A stretch of DNA of 43,261 nucleotides from Pseudonocardia sp. (GTDB lineage: Bacteria; Actinomycetota; Actinomycetes; Mycobacteriales; Pseudonocardiaceae). The stretch's first letter is position 1. Every line of letters starts with the position of its first letter. The position numbers and the translations under genes are program-made. Below, piece after piece: positions 6,652 through 15,146 of this stretch. Below the pieces are notes generated by a model. It worked only from the letters and a program-made list of their open reading frames with translations. It made no database searches and was not told the DNA's origin. Where the stretch lies: contig JAKDNL010000005.1 in NCBI GenBank assembly GCA_030451825.1, positions 1 to 43,261 of the forward strand. The letters are read 5' to 3'.

Positions 6652-8105
6652 ATGCTGACGCGGCTCGAGGTCCGGGGGTTCAAGAACCTGCTGGACACCC
6701 ACGCCGAGTTCGGACCGTTCACCTGCATCGCGGGCGCAAACGGGATCGGCAAGTCCAATGTGTTCGACGCGATCGAGTTCCTGTCCTATCTGGCAACAGA
6801 CACCCTGGTAGAGGCTGCGCAACAGGTACGGGGTCCGAACGGTCCGCGCTCCGGATCCGAGCCACCCCGAGGTGACGTCCGGGACCTGTTCTGGGACGGG
6901 TATCGGGATCACGAACGCCGGATCGATCTCGCGGTCGAGATGCTCGTCCCACGAGAGGTCGAGGACGACCTCGGCGCACCCGCTCCCGCCACGACCACAT
7001 TCCTGCGTTACGAACTGACTCTCGGCTACGAGACCCCGGCCGGCGAAGGCCGGATAGGCCGCCCGAGCCTGCTCCGGGAGGAGCTCCGGCAGATCAATCG
7101 CGGGGAGGCGACACGACACCTCCGGTTCCCGCACAACGCCCAGACTTTCCGGACCTCGGTCGTCACCGGAACCCGCCGCGGCGGGCCGTACCTCGAAACA
7201 GCCTCCCGCGACGACGGAACAGTGATCAACGTTCACGGCGACGGCGGCAGCAGGGGACCTCCACAACCGCGGGCAGACGCGCGCAGCGGACGGACCGTCC
7301 TGTCGACCGTCACGACGAACGACTACCCGACGATTCTGGCCGCGAAGCGCGAGATGCAGAGCTGGCGGCGGTTCGCGTTGGAGCCCTCGGCTCTCCGCGC
7401 CCCGAACAGCCTCAGCGATCCCCGCTCCCTCGGGCACAACGGACAGCACCTCGCCGCCGCCCTCTATCGGATCGCCCATGACAACACGGTCGACGGAGAT
7501 CCGGACCCCGCGGCACTGATGTCGCGGGTGGCCGGACGCCTCTCTGACCTGACCGGTGTGCGGGTCGATGACCTGACCGTCGACCTGGATAAGGCACGAG
7601 AGGTGTTCACCCTGTTCCTGCTGGAGCGTGGTGGCCTAGTGGTGGCCTCCGGCTGCCGGCCCGCGCGCTCTCGGAGGGCACCCTTCGTTTCCTGGCTCTC
7701 TGCGTACTGCTCGAGGATCCGGAATTCACCGGATTGCTGTGCATGGAGGAGCCGGAGAACGGGATTCACCCGGCGAACCTGCCGGCCGTCATGGAGCTCA
7801 TCCGCGACCTCGCCGTCGATCCGTCGCACGCGCCCGGTGACACGAACCCCTTCCGGCAGATCATCATCAACACTCATGCGCCGGGCGTCGTGCAGCTCTG
7901 CGACCCGGCCGACCTGTTGCTCGCCGATCTCACACCACAACGCACTCCGGATGGGCAGGCCGTCCGGGCACTCGCGCTCCTACCCTTCCGCGACTCGTGG
8001 CGTGCGGACGACACATCGCGGTCCTTCGGGGAGGCCGACGTCATCGCCTATCTGGCGCCTCCGTCCGGGGCGCAGCTGCGTCTTCCACTGGACATCGCCG
8101 GATGA
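6652..8105 (+). pseudogene. AAA family ATPase (RecF/OLD-like, AAA_15/AAA_21 type), frameshifted near 7650
   Basis: MLTRLEVRGFKNLLDTHAEFGPFTCIAGANGIGKSNVFDAIEFLSYLA (Walker A) in frame 1; ...VVAS then RLPARALSEGTLRFLALCVLLEDPEFTGLLCMEEPENGIHPANLP...IIINTHAPGVV (signature, Walker B, D/H loop) in frame 3. One missing C in gcctcc(c)ggctg reconciles the frames. Confidence 0.8.
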
Positions 8106-8474
8106 CTGCCGGACCTCGGTCCGGCCTGTTCGTCGCCGAGGGCACCTCGGACCTGCCACTCGCCGAACTCGTCGAGTCCCTCTTCCTCGCGCACGGGGCG
8201 ACGGTGACCTCGACCAGGCCCGATTTCTCCCTGCTCCAACGAAGTGGAGCGGGTGGCCGATCCGAAGACGTTGCTCCACGACTCCATCCTGGAGACCGCG
8301 AACGTGACAGGCCGCAAGCGTCAGCAGTTGGCCGGACGGTTCTCCCAGAGCCGTCGCCAGCTGTTGGAACGCCTCGACTCTGATGGACCTGTCGCTTCTC
8401 TGGATAGCTGGCAGCACGTGGTCACCTCCGTGAAGGAGGTCGTGGCGGGCTGGGCCACGACCACCGCCCCCTGA
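8102..8474 (+). pseudogene. TOPRIM/DUF4276-like partner, internally deleted remnant
   Basis: ATGA overlap with the ATPase stop. N-terminus MTAGPRSGLFVAEGTSDLPLAELVESLFLAHGATVTSTRPDFSLLQ in one frame; C-terminus VERVADPKTLLHDSILETANVTGRKRQQLAGRFSQSRRQLLERLDSDGPVASLDSWQHVV in another; central segment absent. Confidence 0.55.
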
Positions 8475-8528: not shown

Positions 8529-8600
8529 GTGATCGCCCTCCCGCTGACGCGTCGTCGTCACGTCGATCACCAGCTCGTCACCAGCTGCGCCTGTCACTGA
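8529..8600 (+). CDS. putative 23-aa leader peptide upstream of sfnG-like gene
   Basis: GTG ATC GCC CTC CCG CTG ACG CGT CGT CGT CAC GTC GAT CAC CAG CTC GTC ACC AGC TGC GCC TGT CAC TGA = MIALPLTRRRHVDHQLVTSCACH*. Shares LTRRRHVD and terminal Cys with the second leader at 13650. Confidence 0.75.
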   Translation: MIALPLTRRRHVDHQLVTSCACH

Positions 8601-8719: not shown

Positions 8720-9850
8720 GTGTCCGACATCACCGAACCGCTGAAGTTCGCCTACTGGGTGCCCAACGTCAGCGGCGGGCTGGTCACCAGCACGATCGAG
8801 CAGCGCACCGACTGGGGCTTCGACTACAACGTCAAGCTCGCCCGGACCGCTGAGAACAACGGCTTCGAGTACGCGCTGAGCCAGATCCGCTACATGGCCA
8901 GCTACGGCGCCGACCACCAGCACGAGGCCACCAGCTTCTCGCTCGCGCTCGGCATGGCCACCGAGCGCCTGAAGCTGATCGCCGCCGTGCACCCGGGCCT
9001 GTGGCAGCCGGCCGTGCTGGCCAAGTGGCTCGCCACCGCCGATCACCTGACGGGCGGCCGGATCGCGGTCAACGTCGTGTCCGGTTGGCTCAAGGACGAG
9101 TTCACCGCCATGGGCGAGCCGTGGCTCGAGCACGACGAGCGCTACCGCCGCACCGCGGAGTTCATCCGGGTGCTGCGCGAGATCTGGACCGCCGGTGAGG
9201 GCGGCGCCGAGTTCGCCGGCGACTTCTACCGGGTGCACGGCTTCGACCTCAAGCCCCGCCCGGTCGACGTCCCCGGCCGCCCACACCCGGAGATCTTCCA
9301 GGGCGGCAACTCCACCGCCGCCCGCCACAACGGCGGCACCGTCTCGGACTGGTACTTCTCCAACGGCAAGGACTACGACGGCTTCACCGAACAGGTCGAG
9401 GAGGTCCTCGGCCACGCGAAGACCGCCGACCGTCTGCAGCCGGTCCGGTTCGGCCTGAACGGCTTCATGATCGCCCGCGACTCCGAGTCCGAGGCCCGGG
9501 ACACCCTGCGCGAGATCATCGAGAAGGCCAACAAGCCGGCCGTCGAGGGCTTCCGGAGCGCCGTGCAGCAGGCCGGCAGCTCCACCGGCGACAAGCGCGG
9601 CATGTGGGCGGACTCGTCGTTCTCCGACCTCGTCCAGTACAACGACGGCTTCAAGACCCAGCTGATCGGCACCCCGGAGCAGATCGCCGACCGCGCGATC
9701 TCCTACAAGCGCCTCGGCGCGAACCTGCTGCTCCTGGGCTTCCTGCACTTCCAGGAGGAGGTCGAGTACTTCGGCGCCAAGGTCCTCCCGATCATCCGGG
9801 AGAAGGAGGCCGAGCTCGCCGAGCGTGAGCCGCAGCTCGCCCGGGGCTGA
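8720..9850 (+). CDS. sfnG: LLM-class flavin-dependent monooxygenase, dimethylsulfone monooxygenase SfnG-like
   Basis: MSDITEPLKFAYWVPNVSGGLVTSTIEQRTDWGFDYNVKLARTAENNGFEYALSQIRYMASYGADHQHEATSFSLALGMATERLKLIAAVHPGLWQPAVLAKWLATADHLTGGRIAVNVVSGW; GTG start at 8720 after GAGGAG. Confidence 0.85.
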   Translation: MSDITEPLKFAYWVPNVSGGLVTSTIEQRTDWGFDYNVKLARTAENNGFEYALSQIRYMASYGADHQHEATSFSLALGMATERLKLIAAVHPGLWQPAVLAKWLATADHLTGGRIAVNVVSGWLKDEFTAMGEPWLEHDERYRRTAEFIRVLREIWTAGEGGAEFAGDFYRVHGFDLKPRPVDVPGRPHPEIFQGGNSTAARHNGGTVSDWYFSNGKDYDGFTEQVEEVLGHAKTADRLQPVRFGLNGFMIARDSESEARDTLREIIEKANKPAVEGFRSAVQQAGSSTGDKRGMWADSSFSDLVQYNDGFKTQLIGTPEQIADRAISYKRLGANLLLLGFLHFQEEVEYFGAKVLPIIREKEAELAEREPQLARG

Positions 9851-9902: not shown

Positions 9903-10682
9903 TCAGGGCGCGCCGAGGGCGGGGTCGGCTTTGAGCCCCACCCCGGACAGTCCCAGCCGACGGGCCTCCGTCATCAGCATCGCCAGCGTCGTCGCTGCCT
10001 CGGCGTAGCCCGTCCCGTGCGGCGGGCGGACGTTGGACAGGCAGTTGCGCTCGGAGTCCCGCCGCCCGCGCCGCGCGTCGTAGGTGAAGTACAGACCGAG
10101 CGAGTCGGTGGAGCTCATCCCCGGCCGCTCCCCCACCAGGACGACCACGCTGCGCGCCCCGACGGCCGTCGCGATCTCGTCGCCCAGGGCCACCCGCGCC
10201 TGCGACGCCAGGACGACCGGCGCCACCCGCCACCCGTCGAGACGGGCCAGGATCTCGCGCAGCATCGGCACCGCATGCGTCTGCACCGCGAGCGGGGACA
10301 GCCCGTCGGCGACGACGAGCACGACGTCGTAGTCCCCCCGCTGCAGCGCCGCGTCGTCGGCGAGCAGCCGGCCGAGGTCGGGCCGGCGCAGGTACTCCGA
10401 GCGGCTCGGGGCGGCGCTGGCCGCGTGCGAGGCCGGCACCCCCAGCTCCCCGATCCGGCCGAGGAGGTCCTCGGCGTCGAGCGGCGAGTGCACGGCGTCG
10501 CGGGCGGCGGCATGCGCCGCCCGTAGCTCCAGCAGCCGCGCGGTGGGCAGCGCGTCGCCCGCCCGACCGAGCGCGACGCGGGCCCGGGTCGAGGCGCGCA
10601 ACGCCTCCAGCGGGTCGCCTCCGGTCCCGGCCGCCGCGTCCGCGTTCGGGCCGGTCGTGCGGGCGGGATCGGCCGCGCTCAC
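9903..10682 (-). CDS. eutC: ethanolamine ammonia-lyase small subunit
   Basis: DPLEALRASTRARVALGRAGDALPTARLLELRAAHAAARDAVH...VVLVVADGLSPLAVQTHAVPML...VVLVGERPGMSSTDSLGLYFTYDARRGRRDSERNCLSNVRPPHGTGYAEA; GTGA overlap with eutB. Confidence 0.95.
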   Translation of the reverse strand: MSAADPARTTGPNADAAAGTGGDPLEALRASTRARVALGRAGDALPTARLLELRAAHAAARDAVHSPLDAEDLLGRIGELGVPASHAASAAPSRSEYLRRPDLGRLLADDAALQRGDYDVVLVVADGLSPLAVQTHAVPMLREILARLDGWRVAPVVLASQARVALGDEIATAVGARSVVVLVGERPGMSSTDSLGLYFTYDARRGRRDSERNCLSNVRPPHGTGYAEAATTLAMLMTEARRLGLSGVGLKADPALGAP

Positions 10683-12061
10683 CGCACACCTGCCGTCAGC
10701 GCGCGCATCGTCGCCGAGTCCAGCGCCGGTTCCCGCACCCGGCCGTCGGTGCTCAACAGCTCCATCCGCTCCAGCCAGCCGGCGAACTCCGGCGCCGGGC
10801 GCAGGCCGAGTGCCGCCCGGGCGTAGAGCGCGTCGTGGAACGAGAGCGACTGGTAGTGCAGCATCACGTCGTCGCCGCCGGGCACGCAGATGACGAACGA
10901 GCAGCCGGCCACCCCGAGCAGCGTGAGCAGGGTGTCGGTGTCGTCGGCGTCGGCCTCGGCGTGGTTGGTGTAGCAGACGTCGACGCCCATCGGGACGCCG
11001 AGCAGCGAGCCGCAGAGGTTGTCCTCCAGCCCGGCCCGGGTGATCTGCTTGCCGTCGTAGAGGTACTCCGGTCCGATGAACCCGACGACGGTGTTGACCA
11101 GCAACGGGTCGAACGCCCGCGCGACGGCGTAGGCGCGCGCCTCGAGGGTCTGCTGGTCGATTCCGTGGTGGGCGTCGGAGGACAGCGCGCTGCCCTGCCC
11201 GGTCTCGAAGTACATGCAGTTCGTCCCGACGGTGCCGCGGCCCAGCGACAGCGCCGCCTCGTGCGCCTCGCGCAGGATGGCGAGGGTGACCCCGAAGCCC
11301 TCGTTCGCCGCCTGGGTCCCTGCGACGGACTGGAACACCAGGTCCACCGGCGCGCCGCGTTCCATGATCTCGATCGACGTCGTGACGTGCGCGAGCACGC
11401 AGCTCTGGGTGGGGATCTCGTAGCGGGTGCGGACCTCCTCGACCAGGTGCAGCAGGTCGGTCGTGCGGGCCGGTGAGTCGGTGGCCGGGTTGATCCCGAT
11501 GACGGCGTCGCCGCAGCCGAGCATCAGGCCGTCGACGATCGAGGCGGTGACACCCGCCGGGTCGTCGGTCGGGTGGTTGGGCTGCAGCCGGGTGGCCAGC
11601 GTGCCCGGCAGGCCCAGCGTGGAGCGGAACGCGGTGACGACCGGGGTCCGGCGGGCCACCGAGACCAGGTCCTGGATCCGCATCAGCTTCGACACCGCCG
11701 CCACCATCTCCGGGGTCAGGCCCGGCGCCAGCGCGGTGGTGTCGGTGTCCGGACGGAGCAGGTGGTCGCGCAGGCCGCCGACGGTCAGCGACGCGATCGG
11801 GGCGAACGCGGCAGCGTCGTGCGAGTCGACGATCAGGCGGGTGACCTCGTCGGTCTCATAAGGCACCACGAGCTCGTCGAGGAACGTGGTCAGCGGCAGG
11901 TCCGCGAGCACGGTCTGGGCGGTGACGCGTTCGCCCTCCGACCCGGCCGCGATGCCGGCCAGCACGTCCCCGGACCGCCCCGGGGTGGCCGCGGCGAGCA
12001 GGGCGGCCAGGTCCGCGAACTCGTGGGTGTGCCCGCCGAGGGATCCGCGACGGCGTGTCAT
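10679..12061 (-). CDS. eutB: ethanolamine ammonia-lyase large subunit
   Basis: DEVTRLIVDSHDAAAFAPIASLTVGGLRDHLL...LMLGCGDAVIGINPATDS...FETGQGSALSSDAHHGIDQQTLEARAYAVARAFDPLLVNTVVGFIGPEYLYDGKQI. Confidence 0.96.
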   Translation of the reverse strand: MTRRRGSLGGHTHEFADLAALLAAATPGRSGDVLAGIAAGSEGERVTAQTVLADLPLTTFLDELVVPYETDEVTRLIVDSHDAAAFAPIASLTVGGLRDHLLRPDTDTTALAPGLTPEMVAAVSKLMRIQDLVSVARRTPVVTAFRSTLGLPGTLATRLQPNHPTDDPAGVTASIVDGLMLGCGDAVIGINPATDSPARTTDLLHLVEEVRTRYEIPTQSCVLAHVTTSIEIMERGAPVDLVFQSVAGTQAANEGFGVTLAILREAHEAALSLGRGTVGTNCMYFETGQGSALSSDAHHGIDQQTLEARAYAVARAFDPLLVNTVVGFIGPEYLYDGKQITRAGLEDNLCGSLLGVPMGVDVCYTNHAEADADDTDTLLTLLGVAGCSFVICVPGGDDVMLHYQSLSFHDALYARAALGLRPAPEFAGWLERMELLSTDGRVREPALDSATMRALTAGVR

Positions 12062-13464
12062 CGCAGGTCCTCCTCCGCCGCGGACAGCGCGGTGAACTCC
12101 TCGTCCGGGGCCCGGGCGACGAGGTGGTGTCGTGAGTAGATCGCGAAGTAGGCCATGAACAGCGCGAACGCCCCGAGCGCGCAGAGCGCGGCCACGGTGT
12201 CCACCAGGAACGTGGCGATCACCGCTATCACGGCCACCACCAGCGCGAACCCGGTGGTCGCGACACCGCCGGGCGTCCGGTACGGGCGCGGCATGTCCGG
12301 CTCCCGGCTGCGCAGCACGATGTGGCTGACCATCATCAGCACGTACGACAGCGCCGCGCCGAACACGGCCATGTTCAGCAGCACGTCGCCCTGCCCGGTC
12401 AGCGACAGCCCGAAGCCGATCACGCCGGGCACGATCAGCGCCAGCGTCGGTGCCTTGCGTCGGTTGGTCACCGACAGCACCCGGGGCAGGTAGCCGGCCC
12501 GGGACAGCGCGAACGTCTGCCGGGAGTAGGCGTAGATGATCGAGAAGAAGCTGGCCACGAGCCCGGCCAGCCCGATGTAGTTCACGACGATCGCCAGCGG
12601 CGCGTCGCCCAGTGCCTCGACCAGGGGGTTACCCGACCCGGACAGGGCCTGCGCCCCCAGCGCGCCGGTGGCCAGCACCAGCACCCCGGCGCCGGTCACC
12701 AGCAACACCAGCATGGCGACCACGATCGCCTTCGGGACGTTGCGCTCGGGCTCGCGCGCCTCCTCCGCGGCGAGCGGGACGCCCTCGACGGCGAGGAAGA
12801 ACCAGATCGCGAACGGCACCGCGGACCAGATCCCGATCATCCCGAACGGCAGGAACGCCGAGGCACCCGCGGCGTCGGTGACCGGGATGTCGACCAGGTT
12901 CGCCGGGTCGAAGCGCGGGATCGCCCCGATCGCGAACACCACCAGCCCGACCATCGCGATGCCGGTCACCACGAACATCACCTTGAGCGCCTCGCCGGCC
13001 CCGGACAGGTGGATGCCGATGAACACCGCATACGCGGCGAGATAGACCCACCAGCCGTCGGTGATCCCGAACAGGCCCAGCGACTCCACGTAGGCGCCGA
13101 TGAACGTGGCGATCGCGGCCGGGGCGATCGCGTACTCGATCAGGATCGCGGTGCCGGTGGCGAACCCGCCCCACGGGCCCAGCGCGCGGCGGGCGAACGT
13201 GTAGCCGCCGCCGGCCGTCGGGAGAGCCGAGGAGAGCTCGGCCATCCCCAGCACCATCGCCAGATACATCGCGGCGATCACCACACCGGCGATCAGCAGG
13301 CCGCCGAAGCCGCCCTGCCCCAGGCCGAAGTTCCAGCCGGAGTAGTCGCCGGAGATCACGTAGCTGACGCCGAGCCCGGCCAGCAGCACCCAGCCGGCCG
13401 CGCCGGTCCTGAGCTGTCGCCGGGACAGGTAGTCGCTCGTGGCGTCGTCGGACGGGGTGGACAC
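12058..13464 (-). CDS. ethanolamine permease (APC family)
   Basis: YLSRRQLRTGAAGWVLLAGLGVSYVISGDYSGWNFGLGQGGFGGLLIAGVVIAAMYLAMVLGMAELSSALPTAGGGYTFARRALGPWGGFATGTAILIEYAIAP; ATGA overlap with eutB. Confidence 0.92.
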   Translation of the reverse strand: MSTPSDDATSDYLSRRQLRTGAAGWVLLAGLGVSYVISGDYSGWNFGLGQGGFGGLLIAGVVIAAMYLAMVLGMAELSSALPTAGGGYTFARRALGPWGGFATGTAILIEYAIAPAAIATFIGAYVESLGLFGITDGWWVYLAAYAVFIGIHLSGAGEALKVMFVVTGIAMVGLVVFAIGAIPRFDPANLVDIPVTDAAGASAFLPFGMIGIWSAVPFAIWFFLAVEGVPLAAEEAREPERNVPKAIVVAMLVLLVTGAGVLVLATGALGAQALSGSGNPLVEALGDAPLAIVVNYIGLAGLVASFFSIIYAYSRQTFALSRAGYLPRVLSVTNRRKAPTLALIVPGVIGFGLSLTGQGDVLLNMAVFGAALSYVLMMVSHIVLRSREPDMPRPYRTPGGVATTGFALVVAVIAVIATFLVDTVAALCALGAFALFMAYFAIYSRHHLVARAPDEEFTALSAAEEDLR

Positions 13465-13649
13465 GGTGCACCTCCGAGGGGCCTGCCGGGCGCGGGACGC
13501 CGGCGGAGACGTCAGTGTGCCCCCGTTCGGGGTCGGTGATGTTGCTCCATGATGTCGAACTTCGCCCGACCTGACCGGACAACTCGGCCCGCCGTCCCAC
13601 CGGCCGACCCCGGGTTGACTTATCCCGGATCGATCCGAAAACTGAGGTC

Positions 13650-13721
13650 GTGTTGTTCTGCGTGCTCACCCGTCGACGTCATGTCGACCTTTCCCGCGTG
13701 AACTCGTCCAGCTGTCGCTGA
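13650..13721 (+). CDS. putative 23-aa leader peptide upstream of sfnB-like gene
   Basis: GTG TTG TTC TGC GTG CTC ACC CGT CGA CGT CAT GTC GAC CTT TCC CGC GTG AAC TCG TCC AGC TGT CGC TGA = MLFCVLTRRRHVDLSRVNSSSCR*; internal GTG at 13662 gives MLTRRRHVDLSRVNSSSCR. Confidence 0.8.
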   Translation: MLFCVLTRRRHVDLSRVNSSSCR

Positions 13722-13729
13722 TCCTCGCC

Positions 13730-13747
13730 CGCGCCGTCTGCGGCGCG
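13730..13747 (+). terminator. hairpin after sulfur leader peptide (attenuator candidate)
   Basis: cgcgccg-tctg-cggcgcg, 7-bp GC stem beginning 8 nt after leader stop; second imperfect stem gccgacgg...ccgtccggc at about 13782-13804. Confidence 0.45.
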
Positions 13748-13913
13748 CCGTCCTGAGCATCTACCAGCTCAGAGCCATGGCCGACGGCCCGCGCCGTCCG
13801 GCTCACTCCATTTCCGCACATCGCATCCACCTGTTCCGCACGCATTTTCGCGTATCGGCGAACAGGCGATCCCTGCTGCCCGGAAGATCGACTCGAACCA
13901 CGGAAGAGGAATC

Positions 13914-15146
13914 GTGACCACGACCGACAACCGCCCTGCCACCACCCCCGGCTGGGCCGCGCAGCCGGCTCCGCGCACCGAGGCCGAGTGGCTGGCCCGG
14001 GCCCGCCAGGTGCGCGAGGTGCTCGCCGCCGACGCGGCGGCCCGGGACCGGGCCGCCGCCACGCCCTACGACGAGGTCGCGCTGCTCAAGTCCTCCGGCC
14101 TGGTCACCCTGCTCGGCCCGGCCGAGCACGGCGGAGCGGGCCAGGAGTGGCCCACCGCCTACCGCGTCGTACGGGAGGTCGCCGCCGGCGACGGCTCGAT
14201 CGGGCAGCTGCTCGGCTACCACTACCTGTGGTTCTGGGCCGCCCGCCTGGTCGGCACGCCTGCGCAGATCGAGGCCGTCGAGGCGGATGCGACCCGCAAC
14301 CAGTGGTTCTTCGGCGGCGCGGTGAACCCGCGCGACGCCGACGTCACCATCCGCGACACCGGAGACGCGATCGTCTACAACGGTGCCAAGACGTTCTCCA
14401 CCGGAAGCAAGGTCTCCGACGTGACCGTGCTCGAGGGCGTCCTCGAGGGCACCGAGACGCACATCTTCGCGATCGTGCCGAGTGCCCAGGAGGGCATCAC
14501 GTTCGGAGACGACTGGGACAACATCGGCCAGCGGCTCACCGAGAGCGGCGGCGTCACGATCACCGACGTCAGCGTGCCGTGGGAGGCGGCGGCCGGGTTC
14601 GTGGACAAGACGTTCCAGCCGCGGGTCTACAACACGCTCAACGTGCCGACGATCCAGCTCGTGTTCGTCAGCTTCTACCTGGGCATCGCCCGCGGAGCTC
14701 TGGAGACCGCGGCCGAGTACACCCGCACCAGGACCCGTCCGTGGCTGCACGGCGGGCAGGAACGCGCCGTCGACGAGCCCTATCAGCTCGACCTCTACGG
14801 CGACTACCAGTCCAAGCTCTGGGCCGTCGAGGCGCTGGCCGATCAGGTCGCGCAGGAGGCACTGGCGATCCACCACGACGCCTGGAACGTGACCGCGCAG
14901 CAGCGTGGCGAGCACGAGGTGCGGGTGGCCGCGGTGAAGGCCCGCGCCACCGAGGTCGCCCTGGAGATCACCAGCGGGATCTTCGAGGGGCTCGGCGCCC
15001 GGGCCACCCAGGCCGCCCTCGGGTTCGACCGCTTCTGGCGCAACGTGCGCACGCACACGCTGCACGACCCGGTTGCCTACAAGCGTCGGGAGGTCGGGGC
15101 GTTCCTGCTCCGCGACGAGCTGCCCGAGCCCACCTGGTACTCCTGA
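13914..15146 (+). CDS. sfnB: acyl-CoA dehydrogenase-fold sulfur-acquisition oxidoreductase, SfnB/DszC family
   Basis: TEAEWLARARQVREVLAADAAARDRAAATPYDEVALLKSSGLVTLLGPAEHGGAGQEWPTAYRVVREVAAGDGSIGQLLGYHYLWFWAARLVGTPAQIE...WFFGGAVNPRD; typical SfnB/DszC family pattern. Confidence 0.82.
   Translation: MTTTDNRPATTPGWAAQPAPRTEAEWLARARQVREVLAADAAARDRAAATPYDEVALLKSSGLVTLLGPAEHGGAGQEWPTAYRVVREVAAGDGSIGQLLGYHYLWFWAARLVGTPAQIEAVEADATRNQWFFGGAVNPRDADVTIRDTGDAIVYNGAKTFSTGSKVSDVTVLEGVLEGTETHIFAIVPSAQEGITFGDDWDNIGQRLTESGGVTITDVSVPWEAAAGFVDKTFQPRVYNTLNVPTIQLVFVSFYLGIARGALETAAEYTRTRTRPWLHGGQERAVDEPYQLDLYGDYQSKLWAVEALADQVAQEALAIHHDAWNVTAQQRGEHEVRVAAVKARATEVALEITSGIFEGLGARATQAALGFDRFWRNVRTHTLHDPVAYKRREVGAFLLRDELPEPTWYS

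Follow-up and report, generated by a model that had tools for sequence, protein, structure and literature searches.

The window analysed here, a stretch of 43,261 nucleotides of Pseudonocardia DNA taken as a whole, carries sfnG and an sfnB-like gene on its forward strand, each preceded by a short ORF. The product of the sfnB-like gene is a member of the SfnB/DszC family that lies under both equivalog cut-offs (298 bits against the DszC model, cut-off 850; 256 bits against the SfnB model, cut-off 431). An earlier note, made from the letters of the sequence, had read the ORF before this gene as a 23-residue leader peptide with a near-terminal cysteine and as the second occurrence of one placed before another sulfur gene. 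Translation of 13650-13721 confirms the first point, and the sister ORF at 8529-8600, upstream of sfnG, the second. The features are as follows.

8529..8600, + strand: sister leader ORF (VIALPLTRRRHVDHQLVTSCACH), with promoter TTGACA-17-TTGGCT
8720..9850, + strand: sfnG, dimethylsulfone monooxygenase, 3' of the sister leader (TIGR04021, 565 bits, cut-off 383)
13615..13620, + strand: TTGACT, -35 element of the predicted leader promoter, from sequence; kept in the related loci named below
13638..13643, + strand: AAAACT, -10 element, after a 17-nt spacer and 6 nt before the GTG
13650..13721, + strand: leader ORF, 23 aa (VLFCVLTRRRHVDLSRVNSSSCR), GTG start, TGA stop at 13719-13721
13713..13715, + strand: TGT, the Cys codon at +9 counted from the Asp; proposed stall codon, from codon statistics
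13719..13726, + strand: candidate anti-Shine-Dalgarno UGAUCCUC, pairing with GAGGAAUC beside the sfnB start in one predicted fold
13730..13747, + strand: GC hairpin by folding, CGCGCCG-UCUG-CGGCGCG (7 bp, UCUG loop, no U tract), readable also in locus L052
13753..13772, + strand: second hairpin by folding, CUGAGC...GCUCAG
about 13778-13802, + strand: third, imperfect stem by folding
13807..13816, + strand: stretch of the UTR whose partner in the predicted whole-leader fold is the sfnB Shine-Dalgarno (pair probability 0.75-0.89 at most bases)
13902..13910, + strand: Shine-Dalgarno region of the sfnB-like gene, GGAAGAGGA, from sequence; in the default fold predicted for it, most of it is paired
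13914..15146, + strand: sfnB-like gene, SfnB/DszC-like sulfur-acquisition oxidoreductase, 410 aa, GTG start; the proposed regulated gene

The leader ORF and the GTG of the sfnB-like gene are separated by 192 nt. One cysteine of the peptide stands near its end and another is codon 4, and there is no run of them. Over LTRRRHVD, the sfnB and sfnG leaders differ by 5 synonymous codon changes and no residue change, which bears out the claim that the DNA has drifted while the peptide core has been kept. In the window and in loci L052, L053, L059, L060 and L063, the promoter consists of TTGAC(T/A), a spacer of 17-18 nt and a -10 element NANNCT, with the GTG 6 nt further on; this layout scores at least 8 at 47% of 85 genus leaders and at 1.5% of control positions, and a consensus scan under a stricter rule gave no match. 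From this spacing we infer that the mRNA starts at or next to the GTG, i.e., that it is leaderless, in agreement with mycobacterial leaders, which are leaderless (PMC4633059). Just 5' of the sfnG leader lies an AAA ATPase (window 6652-8307, + strand) that is weakly MAD3-like (methylation-associated defence; 62.7 bits, cut-off 420), and an ethanolamine operon (permease, EutB and EutC; window 9903-13464, - strand) lies between sfnG and sfnB. Since the 2 leaders of the nearest relative, L052, are at most 1.5 kb apart, an insertion of this operon, or some other event that parted sfnG from sfnB, is probable here.

Both the layout and the near-terminal Cys place the ORF beside NCBIfam NF042934, a "putative leader peptide" model that names no mechanism. 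The RR-x-HVD core and near-terminal Cys of a short ORF are present in the sfnB leader, which shares with the model the layout RR-x-HVD-L-x-R-x-x-S-A-x-C. Its score is 25.3 bits (E 8e-6), or 24.6 when the genome was searched, where the cut-off is 27, while its orthologues in L059, L063 and L214 pass that cut-off with 29.3, 36 and 30.3 bits; we thus read it as a near-miss member and not a formal one. The sfnG leader scores 11.1 bits. Searches of genome assemblies, from which all genome-wide counts here are taken, matched the peptide at nine places in its own genome. These ORFs, about nine, precede, among others, genes for sfnG, the sfnB-like protein, sulfite reductase, O-acetylhomoserine sulfhydrylase, a sulfurtransferase and an FMN monooxygenase. 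At equal thresholds, the family was found in 30 of 30 sampled Pseudonocardia genomes, 50 of 60 sampled genomes of the class and none of 14 controls. A Pfam scan of the peptide gave no match, an Rfam scan of the window gave no riboswitch or leader family at gathering score, and a Streptomyces leader peptide looked for in plasmid records had no match there. Some genomes carry islands with several leaders each, at G002:C1:3868867-3893396 (~25 kb) and G001:C2:2376940-2497691 (~120 kb; L191-L212), where they precede LLM monooxygenases, SfnB-like genes and transporter genes; genome G001 has 23 family matches in total.

The nearest 14 relatives of the sfnB-like gene are all from Pseudonocardia. A leader precedes the gene in 12 of the 13 loci that reach upstream (L061 has none, L065 does not reach upstream, and L057 and L058 are near-identical), its stop lying 58-359 nt 5' of the matched start, and most of these 12 loci have a second leader further upstream, at the expected place of sfnG. 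In Actinokineospora, Streptomyces and Saccharothrix, there is one leader 1.1-1.5 kb 5' of sfnB and none immediately before it, a distance expected for the leader of the preceding, putative pair gene. Pseudonocardia thus appears to carry one leader per gene, where the other genera have a single upstream one. In L057, L062 and L064, the UTR after the sfnB leader contains repeated TTATGGNNCCATAA-like palindromes, which the other sfnB loci lack.

Tabulation of the genes that follow the leaders, a check proposed by the earlier note, bears out the link to sulfur genes. The first good ORF was taken after 56 genus leaders; orthologues recur, so the sample is not independent, and since length and GC3 guided the choice of ORF, a few may be wrong. 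About 40 of these 56 genes belong to sulfur-acquisition or Cys/Met families. By Pfam, there were 14 luciferase-like monooxygenases, 6 rhodaneses, 5 ABC permeases (4 of them SsuC-like), 5 SfnB/DszC-like proteins, 3 TauD, 3 nitrite/sulfite reductases, 2 Cys/Met PLP enzymes, 2 NlpA lipoproteins and 1 sulfur transporter. A genome has 52-114 luciferase-like genes in all, or ~1-2% of its genes (assuming about one gene per kb), versus 25% after leaders. At one locus, L006 (G000:C478), the leader SIWCRRRHVDLCRTGAALCR is followed by a small ORF and then by a KAS III-like gene, with no obvious sulfur gene.

Selection on the peptide is evident across the genus. Among 92 non-redundant leaders, pairwise codon differences are 76% synonymous and 0% nonsynonymous at Arg(-4), 36% and 0% at Asp(0), which is part of the alignment anchor, and 60% and 2% at Arg(+3); synonymous drift is high and nonsynonymous change near nil at all three, so the peptide itself must be what is selected, as the earlier note had held. 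R(-4) and D(0) are invariant in 94 of 94 leaders (D again belonging to the anchor pattern) and R(+3) is kept in 93 of 94. Selection also acts on a single codon, the UGU at +9. The profile used to collect the loci favours Cys at +9 and is blind to the choice of Cys codon; in 89 of 90 genus leaders the residue is Cys, and in 86 of those 89 the codon is TGT, which makes up 8.8% of Cys codons in the downstream genes. Of the 37 other Cys codons that these genus leaders have after the motif, 28 are TGC. TGT also stands at +9 in 29 of 29 leaders of the class-wide set and 21 of 21 of the non-Pseudonocardia set. A pattern search admitting TGT, TGC or TGA yielded, judged by eye, three leader-like cases of TGC at +9. 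One leader has AGT there, and eight have a stop (7 TGA and 1 TAG, in L007, L225, L231, L237, L093, L095, L100 and L169). The leader of L007 is without any Cys and precedes a gene for an FAD/NAD(P)-binding protein. RNA pairing was rejected as the cause of the UGU, since changing U to C had no special effect in real versus shuffled UTRs (p=0.83). No published description of the +9 rule or its stop variants was found in the searchable papers, which excluded most subscription ones, and literature searches with core-motif strings returned nothing relevant.

How such a peptide might act on sfnB is suggested by the leader RNA. Several sfnB leaders have an end complementary to their own Shine-Dalgarno (SD) sequence, as in L053 (CTCCTCTGC/GCAGAGGAG), L059 (GAACTCCTC/GAGGAGTTC) and both L057 and L062 (GTCCTGTC/GACAGGAC). 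Pairing of leader and SD is stronger for true than for swapped partners in the sfnB loci (-18.4 versus -15.5; p=0.0002 for 12 loci, p=0.0006 for 8 group representatives), and a ribosome mask at the Cys codon makes the SD easier to open by a predicted 2.8 kcal/mol, the mean of the 12 loci, with a peak around that codon. The window's own copy is less striking. Its leader end against the SD gives -12.5 kcal/mol, which is not outstanding, and the mask leaves the SD almost unchanged (about -0.1 kcal/mol), with little effect in L052, L055, L059 and L063 as well. In the predicted fold of the window's copy, 13807-13816 is the partner of the SD, and the start codon pairs with the leader. SD sequestration as a family-wide rule was rejected: swapping partners among all 83 loci gives a weak result (p=0.02, with 0.053 for a control stretch), and the mask has no effect in the 71 other family loci.

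From these results we consider it probable that the ORF encodes a leader peptide of the RR-x-HVD family of actinobacteria, which responds to cysteine, acts in cis and controls sfnB by translation attenuation; leader translation, cysteine as the signal and the direction of regulation are what we infer. If the mRNA does start at the GTG itself, every transcript would first meet a ribosome translating the leader. Given ample cysteine, that ribosome would get past the UGU, terminate at the UGA and depart, and the leader mRNA could then fold so that the ribosome-binding site of sfnB is hidden. When Cys-tRNA is scarce, the ribosome would be stalled with the UGU in its A site, covering the end of the leader and blocking the sequestering fold, so that sfnB would be translated. 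As modelled, translation attenuation has good support in the sfnB group and would apply to the window copy by inheritance, with RNA details that vary among loci. Counting against it are the weak mask effect in the window copy and four other sfnB loci, the results for the family at large, the lack of a Cys run and the stop at +9 in a few members.

The stops and the UGU rule hint at a nascent-chain component, and a possible if rather doubtful alternative is that RR-x-HVD-x-x-R, lodged in the exit tunnel, holds the ribosome with +9 (UGU, in some leaders a stop) in the A site, the arrest being set by cysteine or another sulfur metabolite and plain codon starvation being insufficient. The spacing from motif to +9 is fixed, the three motif residues hardly vary, +9 is UGU where other leader Cys codons are mostly UGC, and the exceptions have their stop precisely at +9. 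Motif and spacing favour such an arrest because codon starvation alone needs neither. However, the motif could instead serve leaderless initiation or RNA structure, and published work on mycobacteria, as cited in PMC9094748 and PMC13236596, invokes stalling at Cys codons. Extended to the class, the same features, an invariant RR-x-HVD-x-x-R before an A-site codon that is mostly UGU and sometimes a stop, raise the tentative idea that these are arrest peptides and not simple Cys-codon sensors.

Transcription attenuation, in which translation of the leader would determine whether RNA polymerase halts at the hairpins 3' of it, by an intrinsic or a Rho-dependent route, we regard as unlikely. The earlier note had described a GC hairpin at 13730-13747 and an imperfect stem near 13782-13804. 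The former stands as a perfect 7-bp stem and the latter as the third stem, with another at 13753-13772 between them, and three GC hairpins follow the leader. The 60 nt 3' of the window's sfnB leader fold with a z of -3.0, leader stops generally are followed by 60 nt with a slight folding excess (z<-2 in 14% versus 5%), and Rho has been suggested for mycobacterial cys leaders (PMC1262725). Against this, several sfnB leaders have no hairpin excess, and an intrinsic terminator at 13730-13747 was rejected for want of a U tract. A search for U-tailed terminators found 0 sites, and U-rich stretches after leaders are rare; the terminator/antiterminator folds that the earlier note had in mind are thus unsupported.

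That the peptide is a trans-acting small protein, placed before sulfur genes for co-expression, would account for conservation beyond what codon sensing needs, but it is very improbable given that the genome has some nine diverged copies, most beside a sulfur gene of their own, and given the pairing of the leader with its own SD in the sfnB orthologues. A chance ORF, to which the short length and the below-cut-off NF042934 score of the window copy might point, can be dismissed, as the earlier note argued, in view of the 12/13 conservation, the nine matches in the genome, the spread over genus and class but not controls, and the promoter, codon and context statistics.

Close precedents come from mycobacteria, in the Cys-rich leader peptides Ms5788A / Ms4527A and the polycysteine leaderless short ORFs. 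Canestrari et al. 2020 (Mol Microbiol 114:93) reportedly put such mycobacterial leaders to the test and are said to have proposed translation attenuation. They resemble the sfnB leader in being a leaderless (here predicted) short ORF before sulfur genes, with Cys near the stop and an LT-R/K-RR-x-VD core, but they have a Cys run, where the window's leader has one near-terminal Cys and an organosulfur (sfn) target. Against the Ms5788A / Ms4527A models it scores about 20 bits (cut-off 45), and the C534 leader VNWPLTRRRTVDLCRLAGCLCRAS, an example of the shared core, scores 43.8 bits against Ms5788A under that cut-off of 45. The Canestrari study is cited in PMC9094748 and PMC13236596. The prediction of actinobacterial Cys leader peptides dates from 2005 (PMC1262725), and ribosome profiling showed them in 2015 (PMC4633059). 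The Streptomyces trp, ilv and leu attenuators (PMC8079986) are also alike in their leaderless short leader ORF and downstream hairpins, and some of them, like the sfnB leader, are without a U-rich terminator; the list of eight leaders in that paper names no Cys-dependent one. Since Cys leaders have been predicted, profiled and tested, the sfnB leader is a new member and not a new design: the leader-peptide design and its link to sulfur genes, as put forward in the earlier note, hold, and the family is a described actinobacterial one (NF042934).

The least expected feature is the near-fixed UGU at +9 despite its rare use in the background. It offers a sharp and cheap discriminator between codon starvation and nascent-chain arrest, and if the leaders are arrest peptides, the identity of the UGU, which is wobble-decoded, and tunnel contacts would jointly set the cysteine response. 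In any case, a known actinobacterial family of cysteine-sensing leaders is extended to organosulfur scavenging through genes of the dimethylsulfone type, and the leader marks as probably sulfur-responsive the unnamed monooxygenases that are numerous among the downstream genes.
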